A DNA stretch of 64,000 nucleotides from Candidatus Angelobacter sp. (GTDB lineage Bacteria > Acidobacteriota > Terriglobia > Terriglobales > Acidobacteriaceae): contig JAOAPH010000035.1 in the NCBI GenBank assembly GCA_025462835.1, positions 1 through 64,000 on the forward strand, written 5' to 3'. The number at the start of each line of letters is the position of its first letter. The stretch's first letter is position 1. The translations under genes were made by a program, and so were the position numbers. A model generated the notes under the pieces. It had not been told where the DNA came from and did no database searches. It saw only the letters and a program-made list of their open reading frames with translations. Positions 25,182 to 56,393 of this stretch are shown here, in pieces.

Positions 25182-28100
25182 CTACTGAACAACTAGTGTC
25201 AACGAGGTTGCCGGTGTTGCGTTCGGGGTCGCGCCGTAATGTGCGGTTAGTCCGGTTGCAGAATTGACGGTCACCGTGTAAGTCCCCGCCGGTGTTCCCG
25301 CATTCTGTAATACCGGAGCGCCTCCGAAGCTGCCGCCTCCACCGCCACCACAGGATGCCTGGAAGGCGACCATCAGCAGCAGTAATCCAAACATCGCCCA
25401 AATCTTCAGCATCTTCTTCCTGCGCGACTTACCGGGCAGTAATAAGAGTCCGACTAAAGGCAGGCCGGAGAAACCAACCATAGTTGCCACCATCGGTGCA
25501 TCGCCACGGTTCATATTTCGCGGCGGTGCCGACATGGCAAAGACCTGACCTTGCGTCGAGCAAAGTACGGTTACCGACTGACCAGTCACCGGACCGGATA
25601 ACGTTGCCGGGCTCGCGCTGCAAGTGATCTGGCTCGCAGAAAGGCTCGGAGCGCCGGTAAATGACAGATTCAGCGGTGTAGTACCCGTGTAGTCAACCGT
25701 GAGGACATTGAATGTCCCCGTTTGTCCCTTATTCACGGTGACTGTGGCGGTACCCGCGGTGCTGGTGCCTGTCTGGGACAAAGGAACAGCGATCGGGCCC
25801 AGAACACCCGTTGCAGGATCGTTCGTCTGGTCGCTGACCGTCAGATGGAGCGTCTGAGCAGTTGTAGTTACTGAGACGTCCAGATTCTCGCCGTTCAGCA
25901 CGCTACCGTCTGGCGTCTTACAGCTTCCCGCTGCCGTGTATGGCGAAGTGCATGTGAACACCTTTACAGTGCCGTCAACGAATTGGCCGGTCCATGTGAA
26001 GGTGAGCACATCAGAGCAGGAGTTGGCGGCGCCATTAGCGGCGGTGCTGCCTTTAGGCGTAAAGCATCCCTGACCGATGTCATTATCAATAATGTTGCTG
26101 CTCAGGGTCACGCTGGTACCGGTCACGCCTTTTCCTGAACTCTGTTGGGATGGTGAAGCACTGGCAAGAATCGTTTGCCCCGGCTTCAATTGCGGCGGAG
26201 TGTTCTTAGGCTCTGAAACCGCGAAAGAATTAGCAGTTGACCCAGTCAACGAAGTCGTCAAGTTGTTATTGAAATTCCCGCAGACGATATTCGCTACCTG
26301 ATCCAATGAACTGGTTATGTCCGATCCCGTGTTTACAGAATAGAGACGCACACGCTCAGAGTTCAGGAAGGAAGTCCCGGTGTAATTGACGCATATCTTT
26401 AGTGGCGTGGTCGAGACGGCTGCCGAAGCCAAGTTGTAATAGGTCGTTGTCGGAACCAGAGTGCTCGCCAGTGAGCCATTGGCCGGCGTAGAGGTTACGG
26501 TAACGAACGAACTTCCCGAAATAGTCACGTTCGGGAAGAATATCGAAACATTGGTGTTGGGAATTCCGCTGATCGGATCCACCGGATTGACGGTTTGTGG
26601 TCCCGGGGGCGTGTTGTTCACGGTAATAGTGGATGCAGCAATTGCCGCCGCACTCAGAGTGTTGTTGCTGGTATCCGGATCCACCTCAACGTTCGTTACG
26701 TTTGTTGCCGTTGTCGAAGTCACGGTTGGCGAGTTGGAGATGGTGCCTGGTTTCGTTGGAGTCATCGAGAAAGTGAAGGACGAGGAAGCTCCGCTGGCGA
26801 TGGAACCGGCCAGCGTACACGTGACGGTCGCCTTGTCACTGCTCGCATTCAACAATGTGACTGCAGTGACAACACAACCCGCCGGAGCGGTGATGGACGT
26901 AACTGAATTGTTCGGCGAGATAGTCACTGCGTTCACGACTTGAACATTGGTCGCCGCCGAGCGTCCTGATGGTACATCGTTATTGTTCGTGACCTTGACA
27001 GTGAAAGCGGCAGAGTTTGCCGGGCCACCAGCTGCCGGGGTCAGCGCCGTAGGAGGCGCGGTTTGTGAAATCACCAGGTCTTCGGCGGCATCCGCAATGA
27101 TGGTAGGAGTGGAAGCTGTGTTGTTAGCGTGCGCGTTGTCGGTGATGTCATTGACCACATTGGTGCCGTTCGTGTATTGCGTGACCACGGCAGAGTTGGT
27201 CAGGGTGGTCTTTTGTCCGGCTGGAACCGCGGAAGGCGGCACATCGGTGACGATTGCAACGTGCGCGACTCCGCCTACTTGCAGAGACGACGCGCTGCAG
27301 GTTGCGGCGACGCAGGTGAAGCCGGTCCCGCCGGCGTCAGCAGCCGAGATCAGATTCACGCGAGCGTCAATCGTATCGGTCAAAGTGATTTGCGATCCGG
27401 CCGGATACGGCCCGTTGTTTGTGATCTGAACGTCATAGCTGACGCGATCGCCAACCAGCACATGCGAAGCAGTTCCGTTGCCGCTGATATTCGTATGCGC
27501 GCCGGGCTGCGGCACCGGAGTCGGCGTAATGGCGACTGAAAGGTCCGCTTGTCCGCGCAGATCTACCGGCCACGAATCTGCGTCCGGAGCAACGTTAGTT
27601 GTTTCACTCACATCGGGCGAACTGATAGTCACTGGATTGGAAATACCGAGCTTGTTCGCCACGAGTACGCTGAGCACCGGCCGAACAGTAAACGTGATCG
27701 GAACACTGGCGCCGACGTCCATCTTTCCCAGATCGCAATTGACGTTGGTGCCGATGCCGACCGCGCATGTGCCGCTCGTGGTGCTGCCTACCGTTGGCCA
27801 CGAAGCGGACACAAATTGAAGATCGCTTGCCGACGGCAACTGGTCTTGCACGCGGATGCCGGTGGCAACACTGGGGCCGCTATTGCTTGCAGTGATGATG
27901 TAATTAAATGTCGGTGTGACGCCCGGCGCGGGAGAAGTCACCGTGACCGGAACGGCCGGTCCGACGATTGCGACGCTGATATCAGAGTCTCGTTGGACTG
28001 TGATCTGGGCGGGGATATTGCTGTTGTTAGCAGGGTTGGTGTCTGTGTTACCGCTGGCGCTGACCGCGGGGTTGAAGGACAAGCTCACGGTCGGCGAACC

Positions 28101-31100
28101 CGCAAGCGGCAGTGTGGCATTCGGAGTAAGGACAAAGCTCACGGTCGCCATGTCGGTTCCCGAGCCTACGGGACCCAGCGAACCGGGGACCGTGCAATGG
28201 ATCGTCTGCGGCGGACCGGCAAGAAGCACAGAACAATTGGTTCCGGAAGTAAACGTCAATGCAGAGGTGCTGGGGGTGGAAGGCAGAACAGAGTCCACCA
28301 CGACATTACTGACAGCGGAACCGAGCGAGAGGTTCTGCACAGTTATGTCGTACTGAATAGCATTATGCTTAGTGACCACGAAGTTGGTTCCCGCTACATC
28401 CGGCAATGACGTAGCCGTCAGGATCGGACGCACCACGATGCCGCCGGACTGAACGACGCCCAAGTCGGCGGTACGGACAACGTTGAATGCCTGCGCGTTG
28501 CCCGAATTGTTCGATGATGTCGGATCATTCCAACCAAGAACATCCACGGGAATCGTTACAGAATCCGTGAATGCGAACGAGGGCGGGTTCTGGGTCGGGG
28601 CGATGTTAGCCACACCAGTTTCGGTAATGGTAATTACTTCCCCACCCTGAATGATTCCAGTAGCCGACTGGCAGACGACGACTGCCGCTGGCCCGGCGGG
28701 AAACACGTTTCCGCCGTTGACAGTGCAAGAACCAATGTTCCCGGGAATCGAACTAGACCAAGTAACCGAGTTCACTTTGTATCCGTAATGAACCAACGAA
28801 ATGGTCTCATCCGGCAGTGTGTGTGTCAGCTTGACTGGATGAGTCAGCGAACCTGCGTCATCACCGACGTTCGTAAATTTGATCGTGTATTGCAACGGAT
28901 CACCATCACCGATGTTCGCGCCTGCTTGGATGGGCGAAGCCAGAGTGGGCGAAGTCGCGACGACCGAGGTAATCTTCACGTCTGACTGCGTCTGAACCGT
29001 ACTGGTAACCGTATTCGACGTATTATCAGAACCAGCTGCGCCGTTCGTACCATTGTCATAAGCCATGGGGGACTGTATGACTGCGGAACCAGTGTATTGC
29101 GCGCTGAGTGCGCCGCCGATCAAAAGCGGGGGTGTAAATGTGATTTTTCCTGTTCGCTGGGCTCCACTCTGCAACGGGGTGGCCTGGTTCGCAACAACGC
29201 AAGACACAGTTCCGGCAGCAGCATTAGGTGTACACGTTCCCAGTCCTGTGCCGATGGCACCTGATTGGCTTCCATCGAAATTGGTGAAATTGTGCGCATT
29301 TGCGGAAAAAGTAAACGTGACCGTTGCGCCCACATCGGCGTCTGGACCAAGACCGCCGGTGTTGTCATTCGCGACGGTGAGCGTATAGGTCACCGGTACG
29401 CCGCTAGTAACAGTTGCTGAGGATTGCGTTAATCCGTTCGTGCCTCCGGAAGCAACTAAGTTTGCTTGTTGCCGCACTTCGGTAACAGCCGCGCTTGTGG
29501 TGGTGTCAGGGTTGGTGGTGTCCGGCGTGGGTTCGATCACTGCCGCGCTAATCGTCGCCGAAAGCAAGCTCACGTTCGTCTTGTTCTGCCCGGGACTGTT
29601 CGTCTGGACGATTCCCGATTCCGGCTGCACAATGACGTTGAATATGTATGTGGTTCCGGTCGGAAGATTCGGAAGCGTGCAAGCCCGCGTTGTCGCAGTA
29701 AAGGTGACATTGCAGACTGGGGCGCCGAGTCCGCTGACCGAATTGCTGGATTGGAACCTGTAATTATGGTCGAAAGTAAGCAGCACACTGACATTAGTGG
29801 CAGTCGAGCCGCTACTCGATACCGTGATCGTATGTGTAATGTTGCCGTCTGAACTGACCGCTGCGGTTGCGTTGGCTGAGACCATGTGCAGGTCAGCGCG
29901 ACGCTCCTCAATAGTGTTTACCGTACTGGAAGTTAGAGTGATTGTCCCGGAACTGTCAAAGTCGCTTGTGGACAAGCTGAGATCCAACTGCGCGGATGCA
30001 TTCAGGACTGCGGTTGCGATCGTGGGGGTACTCACTGCTGCTGGCGTGATGGTCACGTTCACCTGCTGACTTCCGCCAGTGGCAGCAATGGTTGGAATGG
30101 TGCAATTAAGAGGTGCGGTACCGGTGCACGTAAGAGTGACACTTCCAGAGACCTGCGTTACAGAGCCGACCAATGCATATCCCGTTGGCAGATTGAGACC
30201 CAACACCACATTCGTTGCTGGATCCACGCCGGCATTGTTGACGGTCGCTTGGTAGGTGATCGATCCAGTCGAAGCTACCGCTGCCGCGATAAATACGGTA
30301 GGCGGCGTTGTATAGCCTGTGCCTGGTGAGGTCACATTGATCGCAGTCACTGCTCCGGCCGCTACCGTAGCGGTTGCAGTCGCTCCCGTGCCTCCGCCGC
30401 CAACCAAGGCGACACTCGGCGCTACTGAATAGCCTGTACCCGGTGCGGTCACGTTAACTGCAGTCACTCCACCGGCAGCGACTGTAGCTGTCGCTGTGGC
30501 TCCGGTTCCTACCGCAGGATTGGTTTCCACAAATGAAGAGAGCGTCAGCGTGGTTTGTCGTTGAACGTTGGTTGTTAACGGCCCAGCAGTTGTGACACAG
30601 CCGCCGCAAACATTTATTGCGTCAGCAGAAGCGATGCTGGTGATTGATCCAAGATAGTTTGGCCCTTGATTCACGGCAGCAAGAAGAGAAGGTGGCGTGA
30701 CTGAAACCGTTACCGGTATTGCAGTTCCCGCGCCACCGATCGGCACCGTTCCGATATTGCAATCGGGTGCTGTCAATGTGCCGCCACAAGCTCCTCCCGG
30801 TGAACTGGAAACTGGCTTCGTGTTCTGTGGCAAAGAGAGGATGACGTGCGTATTGTCAGCAGGATCGAAACCCGCATTGGCAACGGTGAAGGTGTAATTG
30901 AAACCAGGTGAACTGTTTGACACCGTCGACGGGGCAGAGAAGCCGGAGACAGATAATTGATTCTCGTGGCGAATCACCGGCCCCGGTGAGAGTGTCGCAG
31001 AACTATTTAGGGAGGGGGTATCCGTAGTTCCGCCTGTCGTTGTAATCGCGACTGTGCTACCAAGATTGACAAAGGCTTGTGTGGCATCCAGAGGAGCGAG

Positions 31101-34100
31101 CCCGCTGATCGTGAAACTTTGCGGCCCGGAGATTATCACTGTTGGTGCGGACGTGTATCCGAATCCAACAGTATCCACAGTAATGCCGGTAATGGAACCA
31201 TTAGCGTCGACTGCCGCCGAGGCTGTTGCGCCGGTGCCTCCTCCTCCACTTAGGTCAAGCAAGGTGATGATGGGAGTAGTGTAACCAGCGCCTGGGCTGT
31301 TAACAGTAACTGAAGTTACCGTCCCATTAACATCGATTGCAGCGGTTGCTGAAGCACCGCCCGCGCCGCTGGAAATCACAACTGCCGGGGTTGTGGTGTA
31401 TCCGGAACCTTGGTTATTAACAATGATGGATGTCACGGTGTTGCCTGCCAGCACCGCTGTTGCAGTGGCTCCCGTCCCACCTCCGCCTATTAAAGAAACG
31501 GCCGGCACAGCCGTATAGCCGCTACCTGGGCTGACCACGGTGATCGCGGTCACGTTTCCCGACGCTACCGTGGCGGTCGCTGCGGCACCCGTACCACCTA
31601 CCGCGGCAATCATTGCAGCATCAGGGATAGCACAAACGACATTTGCTCCCGGCGATGCCTGATTGCAGAACGAGGGCATCGTGGTGGCCGTAAACTTCGC
31701 CGTCGAAGGATTGGTAAAGCTCTGCGTGATAGTTACGTTGGTAGCGTTCAGAGGACCATTGTTGGCGTAGTTGACCGTAAAGGTAAGGGGCTGTCCCGCG
31801 CGTACCGGATCGGGGGCTGCGCTGAAGCCTCCATTGTTTGTTACATCGAGATCGGCACCGGGAGCGCGATAGTCCACGTTAATAACAACGTTGGTGCTGC
31901 CCGTCCCCGTGAAAACTTGCGTGCTGTCGCCCGCGGTTCCAGCAGCCGTGACTGAATTCGGCAGAATATTGCTGGCGGCTTGCGTGAAGTGTCCATCGAA
32001 TACGACGTGTCCCGTGGCACCGTTCGCGATGGACGCAATGGGACATGTAACCACACCTCCTCCGGTAACGCAGCCAGTGCCCGCCGCCGGCGTTGTGATG
32101 TTGTCGACCACGAAGTTGGCGGGATATGCGGAGGAAACCACGACATTAGTTGCATCGTTGCCCTGCAAGCTATCGTTCTTCACACTAATGTCATAGGTGA
32201 GAGAGGTGTCGGAACCCTGGTTATATATGTTGCCAGCCGGCACCGTGACATTTGAGATCGCCGTTCCGGTCACGGTCAAATTGATGATGCGGGCGTTGGG
32301 CAGATTGAGCGTGCCGCTCGCGGGATTGCTCGCACTTGGCTTCTCTGCCGACGCAACGGTTCCTTGCAGAGCAATCGGGTTGATTGCGCCAGGGCATGAA
32401 GCTGTGGTGCACTCCGCCGCATTCGTAGGCGTTGCCGAAACTGCAATTACCGTAGAGCCGCCTGCAGTGATATTGCCCAGCGAACAGGTAACGCCGCCAG
32501 GTCCGCCGGAAAGGCTGCCCACGCGGGGAGTCGAACACGTTCCCGACACAGTACCTGAAAATGTGGGCGCGGGACTGATCGTAAGCAGATCATTGCCGCT
32601 GCCGTCATTAGGAATCGGTAAGTCGACAGTTGTCGCCGATGCCGCATTGGCGTTGGTCACTGTCCATTTGTAAGTAATGGAAGTGGGGGATGTGCCATCG
32701 GTTCCGACCGGCAATGGCGGCACCGGGGTGAGTTGCGTGCCGTTGATCGTAAATCCCGGTTGCGTGTTTGAATTGGCCTGCAGCTTGGCGACGAAGGAAC
32801 CCGTTGCAGTCACGGGCGTCGTCTGGAAAGCACTAGAGGTGACTGAAACACTTCCATCCGTTGTTCCCACGACATAGGCTTCTGGCTCAGCCGAGGCCGG
32901 GAACCGTCCTGCCATTCCGGTGATAGCGTCCGTGCCGGCACCGCCGAGGAAGGTGCTATAGACCAAAGCAGTGCCAGTACCGTTTACCCGGGCGACGAAG
33001 CCGTCCTGAGGGCTGGCATTAGTGGATTGCAGCGCATTGATATCAAATAGACCAGCCGCCGTCTGCGTGGTTGTCTGGCCGGCAATATAGGCTTCGCAAG
33101 CGTTTACACCATTGCAGGCGGGATTTACGAAGATTGCGTTTCCGATGGTCGATCCTGTTCCACCTAGATATGCAGAATAGGTGAATGAGGCGCCTCCCGC
33201 GGCGACCTTCGCCACGAACGCGTCTTCCGTCCCGGCAAATCCTCCTGACTGAATCGTGTTTGTCTTGTCAGGAAACTGTGGAACAGAGGCATTGGAAGAA
33301 AGAGTGCTGCCAGTTACATAGGCATTCCCTAGCGCGTCCACTGCAATGGCTTTGCCCTCATCGTCCCCGTCGCCACCCATAAGCGTTGCATACTTGGCTT
33401 TCGCGAGCACTGCAGCGCTGTTAGTTCCGGGTGAGCCAGTTCCGACGGTAGAGCCTGGGTTGCCATGGCAATTGGCGGCGTCGCTATAAGTAAACCCAGT
33501 CCCGCTTGCGGTGACGACTGTGAAAGTCCCGTCGAAATCGTAGCCATTGTTATTCATGCCCACGCCACTTATTGTCACGATGTCATTCACTGCAAATGTG
33601 TTCGCAGCGGTGATCGTTACAGTGCCGGTATTGGCACAACTGGCGACGGTAATCGGAGCGGACTTAGTATTGGCATGAACTACAAAGCCGTCTTGTGTAC
33701 TGCCCTTGGTGGTCTGGGCCGCACCAGCAGTCGTGGGAAAGGTAGCCGAGGCAGTTTTGCCTGTGAGATACACGTCATCTATTCCAGCGGCCACAATGGC
33801 ATTGGCAGCATCACTGCCCGCGCCGCCGAGATATGTGGCGTACTTTAGGTCAGCTATGCTGGCACCGGCCGGATGCAACTTGACCAGGAAAATGTCATCG
33901 GCGCCTGCATTCGTGTTTTGAATACCTCTCCCGAATGATGGTGCAGTTACATCCGTACTGGTTGTCCCTTTGATAAAGCTGAAATCCGCGGAGTTGGTCG
34001 AGCCACTGACATAAATGTCGCCGTTACTGTCCACTGCAATGCCGTTACCGACGTTACTCGTGCCCGAACCAGAGAGGTAGGTGGAGTAATCCAGCGTTGT

Positions 34101-35528
34101 GCCGTCAAAATGCAGCTTCGTGACAAAGACTTCAGGTTGAGCGGCCGTAATGAATGTGGCTGTCGCAGTTGCTCCTGTTCCGCCACCACCGGTAATCGAC
34201 ACAGTGGGCGCTGAAGTGTATCCAATTCCTCCGTTTGTAATAGTGATTAAAGTCACTCTCTTGCTGGTGGTGTTGATGGCGCTGGTTGCCAATGCGCCGG
34301 AGCCGGCACCGCCGCTGATAGTTACCGTTGGCGCAGAAGCGTAGTTGGTAGTCCCCACGTTGGTGATTTGAATTGAACTAATCGGCAAGTGACCGCTGAA
34401 CGCGCCCGTGGTAGTCGGGTAGTCGGTGGAGCTAGTCTGACCAGTGATATAGGCGTTTCCAGCAGTATCTACTGCGATTGCGTTTGCTGTGTCAGATCCG
34501 GTGCCGCCGATAAACGTAAGGAAGCTTAGCGTTGTGCCGGAAGAATTGAGCTTGGCAACAAAGACATCGCCAGCACCGCCCGGACCGCAGGTCGCACAGG
34601 CAGTCGCGCTCTTCGGTGCAAACGGTCCCGCAGTTACAACCGTGCCCGTGATGTATGCATTGCCGCTGCTGTCGACAGCAATCGCCTTAGCCGTAACCAG
34701 GGATGCGGCACTGAGATACGTGGAGTAATTCAAGACGGGATCAATGACCAGTTCTTTGCTGCGGTCATATTCTCCGACACGGAAACTCACGCGATTTCTT
34801 TCCAACTGATATCCGCCCGCGATCTCCACGCGGGAGCCATTCTTTTCCTGATAGATCAGCGGCTTCTTAAATCGTAGTTCGCCGTTTTTTGTTTCTAGAA
34901 CGAGATCGCCCGATGCATCGACGCGAAGCTTCTGTGCCCCACTTACTTTCAAAGCAATCTTGTTAGGGTCGGCGCCGGGAGCAACTACGAAGTCATGTTC
35001 CAGTTGCTGCTGGTTACCGTAGTAAAGAAGATCAATGCCGGGATAGACGCCGGCATATCGGACCTTGGAAAAGTTCTCGATATTGGTACGCCACTTGGCA
35101 GGGTTATTTCCAATGAAGTAATTCGTCTTGCCGGGCAACAGATCGAGTCCGCTCGCGGGTATGTTCGAATGCGCTCCCGCGATCTTGAGCCGGACTACAT
35201 CGCCGTTTTTCCCATTCTTATCGGAGGCTAGCGAAAGTACAGCCTCATTCCCGGTAAGGAATAGGTTATAGCCAGCTCCGCGGGAGACGAATTTCACGCG
35301 AGAATCGAGTTGTCCACCATTCGCTTCAAATGCCAAAGGCAGCCGGCTGAAGGTCGCCGACATTTTGGCCATATCCGCAGCTTTGCCCGAGACACTGGGA
35401 ACGGCTAATGATTTGGAGGCTTTCTCCAATACCTGGGCCGGCAGGAGAACACTGCACGAGCTTAGCGTCAGCAGTAACAGGCTTTTGGAAACGAGCGAGC
35501 GAATGGAAACGGTGGACTTACTTGACAT
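25182..35528 (-). CDS. Giant SBBP/DUF11 repeat surface protein
   Basis: About 3448 residues from the ATG at 35528 (GAGGG 7 bases upstream; a TTG two codons earlier is possible). A signal peptide ([16 protein letters not shown]) is followed by a DUF7948-like domain to about residue 260 ([28 protein letters not shown]). SBBP beta-propeller repeats follow to about residue 910 ([10 protein letters not shown] and related phrases), then an array of DUF11-type Ig-like repeats to about 3000. Near the C-terminus are two hydrophobic stretches separated by GKSRRKK and followed by [11 protein letters not shown] and a final Ig-like strand set. It is likely displayed at the cell surface for adhesion or as a stalk. 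Three blocks of a GxGY repeat interrupt the SBBP and DUF11 units. Its own terminator and a 354-bp gap upstream make it monocistronic. Confidence 0.85.
30280..30516 (-). repeat. GxGY/GGGGTGA repeat block C in giant protein
   Basis: Encodes two units of a roughly 38-residue repeat with the phrases [23 protein letters not shown] and [10 protein letters not shown], placed between the first strand of a DUF11-type unit and its continuation. Confidence 0.7.
31128..31608 (-). repeat. GxGY/GGGGTGA repeat block B in giant protein
   Basis: Encodes four units ([40 protein letters not shown]) separated by Gly-rich GGGGTGATA-type turns and VT-rich strands. The block splits a DUF11-type unit between VVCAIPDAA and [13 protein letters not shown], which together would make a normal unit. 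Confidence 0.7.
34140..34392 (-). repeat. GxGY/GGGGTGA repeat block A in giant protein
   Basis: Encodes two units ([10 protein letters not shown] and [10 protein letters not shown] with GGGGTGATATAT). It lies inside an SBBP propeller repeat, between TTGAFSG and QPEVFVTKL, a junction that is normally only about 10 residues long. Confidence 0.7.
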
Positions 35529-35888
35529 GGTCAAACCCTCGACTTCTTGAACTGGACATGCAAAAAGGAAAATCAGGGGGGCCCACGAGGCACACTTATG
35601 CGTGCAGCGTTTGAAGCAATAAAAATTCAGGGGAGGTAAGCCGTCGGAAGTCTATATCAACTACCGCGACAGTCAATGTTTTTCTTGGGCTTGAATAGCC
35701 TTAAGGCATAAATCAGCAGCGACTACTGCGAAGCACTAAGTCCTTGAGTCGAATACCTGAAAACTCACATTGGCACATCGAGGACAGATACGATAAACTG
35801 CGGCGTCATTCTTTATTGCGCTTGATCACACTTCAAGGTTGCGGGCAATCAGACCTGTCGCGCCAATCGACAGCTTTGGGCTTTATTC
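35529..35888. other. Divergent promoter region
   Basis: This 360-bp gap separates the divergent starts of the giant surface-protein gene and the FHA-cyclase gene, so it must contain both promoters. I see no coding frame, strong hairpin or clear -35/-10 pair I would defend. Confidence 0.5.
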
Positions 35889-55394: not shown

Positions 55395-56393
55395 CTATTT
55401 GAAAAACTCGTCCATGTCTGGCGCCGATGCAGCAGCCCCGGGAAATGCTGTGACGCCCAGCGCCTTGAACATAAGCCGCAAGGTGCTCTGGTGCTGAAAG
55501 AAAGTGCTTGATTGAAATCCTGGCTTCGCCTTAGAGCTCACGATCACTGTCGCCACTTGTCCGCCCCCGGACGCAATATCCGAGACCACTGATTCGTCGA
55601 AGGTGATGATCAGCAGACCACTACTTTGAAAGCTTGCATTGGAGACCAGCGGCCCGATATTGGCTGACAGCCAGGCGTCGGCCGCGGCGAGTTTGTCGTT
55701 GTCGCTGCAGGTGATCATGCCAGACGGGCAATCGTGGGCGTTGTGCTGGTTGTCCGGCACGATGTACGAGTAATTGGGAAGTGAATTGCTCTGCAGATCG
55801 GAAGCGAATTGGGTGAACGGCACAATGTTATTGGCTTGTGCGCTGTTGTTGAGCACATCTGAAAAATACGCGAACGGGTTGTGGTGCTTGATATACGGGC
55901 CTTGATCTCCTCCTGTATAGCCGACCGAAGGCAGGCTCATCGCGTAAGCTCGCCATGTCTTTCCCGCCGCCGTTAGCTCCCGGACAACATTGTCATCTGA
56001 CACCGGGCCGGGGAAATCGTCAGTAGTGGCGATTGTGTTCCCTGCCGTCAGGACGAAGTAGTTAGGAAGCGAGGGGTGCGCGTTGGCGAAATAGTTGGTC
56101 GCCAGGCCAAAACTCCGGGCAAGGTTATTCAAGAACGGCATCGATGGATTGCCAATGACTGCTGAATACGAATGGTTCTCAAATACCACCAGCAGGACGT
56201 GATCGTGTGCAACCGATGAACCCGGGGTTGGGTTTGGGGTTGGGGTTGGGTTTGGGTTTGGGTTTGGAACGGGCGAAACAGCTGAGTTCGGCGAAGCAGC
56301 AGAACCACCCCCACACCCGGGAAGTGACACGACAGCAGAGCAAACAAGAACGACCGCGAAAACATTGAGGAACTTCCGCAAATGCGAATTCAT
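55395..56393 (-). CDS. Lipoprotein phosphoesterase (acid-phosphatase/phospholipase C family)
   Basis: 332 residues from the ATG at about 56393 (start MNSHLRKFL). A lipobox-like VVSLPGCGGG follows a hydrophobic signal, so the protein is probably anchored by lipid at its first Cys. A Pro/Asn/Thr-rich spacer (about residues 40-57) leads to the catalytic domain with LLVVFENHSYSAVIG, SLPNYFVLTAGN, DNQHNAHDC and LLIITFDES motifs, which match the phosphoesterase family (PF04185 type) of phospholipases C and acid phosphatases. It should hydrolyse a phosphate ester outside the cytoplasm. The spacer is encoded by a short hexanucleotide-like repeat and could change length by slippage. Confidence 0.8.
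   Translation of the reverse strand: MNSHLRKFLNVFAVVLVCSAVVSLPGCGGGSAASPNSAVSPVPNPNPNPTPTPNPTPGSSVAHDHVLLVVFENHSYSAVIGNPSMPFLNNLARSFGLATNYFANAHPSLPNYFVLTAGNTIATTDDFPGPVSDDNVVRELTAAGKTWRAYAMSLPSVGYTGGDQGPYIKHHNPFAYFSDVLNNSAQANNIVPFTQFASDLQSNSLPNYSYIVPDNQHNAHDCPSGMITCSDNDKLAAADAWLSANIGPLVSNASFQSSGLLIITFDESVVSDIASGGGQVATVIVSSKAKPGFQSSTFFQHQSTLRLMFKALGVTAFPGAAASAPDMDEFFK
56224..56267 (-). repeat. Hexanucleotide-type repeat encoding the spacer
   Basis: A 44-base run of GGTTGG and GGTTTGG-like units (plus strand) encodes the PNPNPNPTPTPNPTPG spacer of the phosphoesterase. Six-base units keep the frame, so slippage would vary spacer length without knocking out the gene. Confidence 0.7.

Follow-up and report, generated by a model that had tools for sequence, protein, structure and literature searches.

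The window, the whole stretch of 64,000 nucleotides that was analysed, carries a giant open reading frame on its minus strand (Table 1). The N-terminus of the predicted protein was signal-like, and a long DUF11 array followed downstream of the SBBP propeller. Its C-terminus (about 25182-25500, minus strand) was hydrophobic, basic and Cys-Gly-rich, and ended in a short beta-like tail. This stretch was common to the protein of the nearest relative, RYN_13, and resembles a terminus for anchoring or sorting. At 56224-56267 in the window, a short tandem repeat, GGGTTT, was present in 7 copies.

Table 1. The giant ORF and the features within it (positions in the window).
Feature	Position	Strand	Residues	Basis
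ORF, 3450 aa: signal region, DUF7948, SBBP propeller, DUF11 array, hydrophobic C-terminal stretch	25182..35534	-		
DUF7948 domain	34734..35330	-	69-267	Pfam PF25778, E 2e-66
SBBP beta-propeller region, hosting block 1 (limits approximate)	32655..34733	-	~268-960	Pfam PF06739, 4 stretches
Block 1, two GxGY units, register A, in a propeller loop	34146..34382	-	385-463	Profile, 26.6 + 46.4 bits
Block 2, four units, register B	31125..31610	-	1309-1470	Profile matches; AlphaFold
Block 3, two units, register B	30276..30515	-	1674-1753	Profile matches; AlphaFold
DUF11 unit split by block 2	30978..31862	-	1225-1519	Longer DUF11 match without block
DUF11 unit that block 3 splits close to the N-terminal strand	29955..30569	-	1656-1860	DUF11 match without block

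The repeat unit is about 39 residues long and comprises three beta strands: a V-T-x-I strand, GxGYTxxPTV and GGGGTGATATA, the first two reading VTxITVTN and GxGYTxxPTVTI when fully written. This pattern is a feature of a module found in phage virion proteins, and the units of the window share it. The Gly, Tyr, Pro and Ala positions were (nearly) invariant in phages and bacteria. A profile built from 207 phage-only units, and thus independent of the window gene, detected eight units in the ORF at 18-46 bits each. No shuffled version of the whole protein (n = 500) scored above 8.5 bits. The original prediction, eight copies divided as two, four and two over three blocks, was exact, and the positions that it gave (34140-34392, 31128-31608 and 30280-30516) lay close to the refined limits. 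In the rest of the window's own genome no other gene with the repeat was found, and the only further match was at E 0.7.

The units were arranged in two registers. Block 1 (units at residues 385-422 and 427-460) began with strand 1 and ended after strand 3, giving the strand order 1-2-3, 1-2-3 (register A). Blocks 2 and 3 began with strand 3 and ended after strand 2, giving a repeated order of 3-1-2 (register B). Block 2 contained a leading half unit (residues 1309-1326) and units at 1328-1364, 1367-1401, 1406-1444 and 1448-1470, and block 3 a leading half unit (1674-1688) and units at 1690-1727 and 1729-1757. The leading halves covered profile positions 21/24-38, and the final unit of both blocks stopped after strand 2, at profile position 23/26. 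Read from the sequence, blocks 2 and 3 are therefore exactly four and two complete, circularly permuted units, and both registers sum to whole units. This is expected if what is kept is not a particular starting point but a closed six-stranded object.

Bacterial blocks were compared for the number of units. Two units were present in 41 of 51 blocks and an even number in 45 of 51; these blocks were found with a query of 100 residues (2.5 units), which disfavours single units. Among the two-unit blocks (n = 43), 28 ended after strand 3 and 15 after strand 2. Most of the latter had a strand-3-like stretch directly ahead of the first unit, e.g., ATAQCVYDPTQNGA. In phages the blocks ranged from 1 to 24 units, so that two is not a strict number there.

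The hosts had been named as an SBBP propeller unit for block 1 and DUF11 units for blocks 2 and 3, and Pfam confirmed both. There was no PF06739 match inside block 1, and the best SBBP stretch lay outside it. There was also no PF01345 match inside the blocks; the DUF11 match broke at block 2 and began after block 3. Removal of block 2 in silico raised the DUF11 score from 23.5 to 26.8 bits, now above the Pfam cut-off, and extended the match from profile positions 8-76 to 8-111. Removal of block 3 raised the score from 32.6 to 36.9 bits and moved the profile start from 13 to 10. The joined flanks at sites 2 and 3 thus scored higher, which supports the original proposal that the host phrases on the two sides of a block make up a normal unit. 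Removal of block 1 gave only a small gain in the SBBP match, because the SBBP model is short.

Homologues of the DUF7948/propeller part were found in 198 of the 398 genomes of the window's family. Among the matches listed, most alignments stopped at about residue 380, just ahead of block 1 (residue 385). In 28 aligned homologues, i.e., all aligned except the RYN_13 orthologue, site 1 was empty and occupied by an ordinary short loop. The DUF11 arrays of other genomes aligned through sites 2 and 3 with the blocks absent, these arrays being not strictly position-matched between genomes.

A genome of the same genus (G001) contained a syntenic 3831-aa DUF7948-SBBP-DUF11 protein that lacked any unit. 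Two local alignments between this homologue (L231) and the window protein skipped residues 1284-1752, the part that holds blocks 2 and 3. The presence of blocks at all sites in all genomes, which had been named as evidence against insertion, was not what was found, given this block-free homologue and the 28 empty sites. Taken at the level of sequence comparison, the blocks are insertions in host folds, and the original proposal of an independent module placed in host loops agrees with these empty sites.

The flanking genes in G001 were highly similar to those of the window, a cyclase/FHA-like protein (named by eye) being 94% and a kinase-like protein 86% identical. The giant protein itself was only about 35% and 28% identical in the aligned parts. 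A gene 28-35% identical to its syntenic homologue between neighbours at 86-94% indicates either very fast evolution or replacement. If the whole giant gene was replaced by a homologue already holding the blocks, the insertions happened elsewhere. The contrast in identity is in line with such a replacement, which we nevertheless regard as unlikely: fast evolution of a surface protein gives the same divergence, and the donor was not found among the 398 family genomes.

Two more genomes bore on the history. In G002, the syntenic neighbour was 91% identical and site 1 was empty; the contig breaks, so that only this site was visible. In G004, the syntenic neighbour was present and the contig breaks there. 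On the other hand, RYN_13 (neighbour 99% identical) contained all three blocks with 2, 4 and 2 units in the same places. The insertions are therefore not recent. Between the window and RYN_13 the blocks were 55, 77 and 87% identical (blocks 1-3), host parts 73-93% and DUF7948 92.5%. The simplest history is that the three insertions predate the split from RYN_13 and postdate the split from the more distant G001. Loss of the blocks in G001 and G002, instead of gain, is possible, in G001 because the aligned parts are so divergent.

The fold of the blocks was predicted with AlphaFold. Block 3 with its flanks gave six strands with pLDDT of 94-98 over the block, and block 2 gave twelve strands in four units with pLDDT mostly 83-96. 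The prediction of the block together with its flanks succeeded for the block, a confident six-stranded module, but the DUF11 host in the block 3 model was poor (pLDDT mostly <55). Predicted phage structures matched at 1.1-1.5 A over 77-80 residues, the structures on both sides being predictions. One alignment that combined DUF11 units with phage blocks was kept out of the folding, since its DUF11 rows were wrongly placed.

These results also bear on whether the blocks simply belong to the host fold, as divergent propeller blades or DUF11 strands that happen to resemble a separate repeat. Block 3 was conserved like its host between the window and RYN_13 (87% versus 83-87%), as such parts would be. 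However, the same sequence family occurred inside unrelated phage sheath and head proteins, homologues with empty sites existed, block 3 was predicted confidently as self-contained, and the Pfam host matches improved without the block. This explanation is largely refuted, and we consider it very improbable.

No known family accounted for the repeat. Pfam-A and NCBIfam gave no family above the curated cut-off, and the module domain is absent from these catalogues, with no Pfam and no NCBIfam model. Searches of solved structures by sequence (consensus and profile) returned nothing, and a PDB structure search with the models gave no convincing relative, the best matches being E 2.5 with probability 0.14 for block 3 and E 1.3 for block 2. 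An Ig-type beta sandwich was considered for the predicted model and rejected on these E values and the lack of a Pfam Ig match. A literature search by sequence or description, with subscription papers mostly outside its scope, found no paper naming the repeat.

Outside the gene, the module was widespread in phages. It was found in 357 phage records, mostly of cyanophages (consensus query, E limit 1; best E about 7e-4). Viral contigs contained it in at least 508 stretches. A tblastn search of phages with block 2 at E 1e-5 gave no match. The PHROG families with the module included virion structural, head closure, baseplate, hub-lysozyme and fibre proteins. The tail sheaths of Persinger, Alux-21 and M29 contained a two-unit block of about 85 residues, and the Vibrio MAR and Wolbachia WO sheaths, which are 59-60% identical to that of Persinger, were without it. 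Coliphage vB_EcoM-ep3 is another phage with the sheath block, its sheath aligning to the whole of the Persinger sheath. The T4-like tail sheath of Stenotrophomonas phage Smp14 (L204:2269-4242) contained two units at a site other than that in the small myophage sheaths. The original proposal, which knew such sequences in scattered large proteins but not as repeated insertions of this kind, was too narrow in scope: tail sheaths and further virion proteins of phages have insertions of the same type.

Among bacteria, the module was present in 47 of the 398 genomes and 19 of the 79 genera of the window's family, and in 20 of 297 in a phylum-wide search. One frame of 3828 aa (G460:C51:220179-226421) contained nine separate module matches, the most among the genomes listed in the latter search. 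Another DUF7948-SBBP-DUF11 giant (L142) contained a block at a different place in the propeller, and further hosts were a multicopper-oxidase-like protein (L149) and a pectate-lyase-like family (L131). In this last family (L131-L136, L138, L144, L147, L148, genus g60 and others), one two-unit register B block was located at the same place in many genomes. A plasmid search did not find the module.

It had also been suggested that the module spread within one gene. A single block may have entered and then been copied to the other two sites by intragenic recombination. Blocks 2 and 3 are both in register B, have similar 5' junctions and start with whole units that lie close to each other (normalised score 0.74), which agrees with copying between these two. 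Block 1, on the other hand, is in the other register and nearer to units outside the gene, its second unit being nearest to those of the SBBP protein L142 (0.78) and phages. The DNA identity between blocks was not above that of units in general, in a unit-by-unit comparison whose free end gaps inflated some cells and gave false 100% values for short units. With units this short, a tree of the blocks would not be reliable. The idea of spread within the gene is thus weakly supported for blocks 2 and 3 and disfavoured for block 1, and copying to all three sites from a single entry appears rather unlikely.

We interpreted the blocks as a portable inserted module, and hold this with high confidence. 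Two three-stranded units would fold together into a compact six-stranded domain of about 78 residues, which would have entered the window gene at three points, each time in a surface loop of a folded host. Being self-contained, and with ends that probably lie close together, the module would leave the folding of its hosts intact. The heritable piece would be the two-unit block, with block 2 as two times two, and would start at strand 1 or strand 3 by circular permutation. Since phage virion proteins are decorated by the same module family, the module was probably acquired through exchange between phages and bacteria. The module may serve as an outward-facing accessory decoration, giving the secreted giant protein a weakly adhesive or spacing surface. 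This account, with the insertion history and the two-unit piece, is probable, slightly less so than the portable module by itself. The more general notion, that an unclassified six-stranded two-unit fold is an insertable element exchanged between phages and bacteria and is accepted in either register because its ends meet in both, has a little under an even chance.

The adhesion or spacer role is tentative, with clearly less than an even chance. It is suggested by analogy with phage sheath beta domains and by the unrelatedness of the host proteins. Specific ligand binding or catalysis would be an alternative to decoration, and the (nearly) invariant Gly, Tyr, Pro and Ala across phages and bacteria might be read in its favour. 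These positions are of the turn type, however, with no conserved charged or polar set among them, and the hosts are functionally unrelated, so that we find such a role quite improbable.

Insertion of whole domains into loops is well known, but few clear natural cases show filled sites next to empty ones in several unrelated hosts. The module would serve as a natural experiment on the folds that accept an insertion. It would also give domain catalogues an entry that is lacking for hundreds of phage and bacterial proteins, and it links bacterial surface proteins with the decoration of phage virions.

Among known systems, SBBP (PF06739) and DUF11 (PF01345) are the host folds of the blocks, and the blocks match neither model. 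PHROG 701, 460, 708, 19630, 1922 and 5342 (virion structural, head closure Hc2, baseplate, hub and fibre proteins) contain the same repeat and matched the block 2 sequence at E 1e-28 to 1e-10. These families are named for their phage hosts, and the repeat itself is no named domain there. In phage sheaths, extra beta domains sit at a distance from the tube, and a part in adhesion or stability has been proposed for them (PMC9230969). Like the module, the Ig-like accessory domains of phages are small, beta-type and horizontally exchanged, and are added to sheath and other virion proteins off the conserved core (PMC9230969). The module differs from them in sequence and in being built of two units of three strands; antibody chains were among its best PDB matches, yet at E 2.5 or worse. 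In bacteria it also occurs as an insert within propellers and DUF11 arrays. Finally, in the domain mosaicism of phage proteins, fragments are shuffled between otherwise unrelated proteins (PMC10684548). The fragment in the window differs in that it is also found in bacterial surface proteins, several times in a single gene and in two circular registers.
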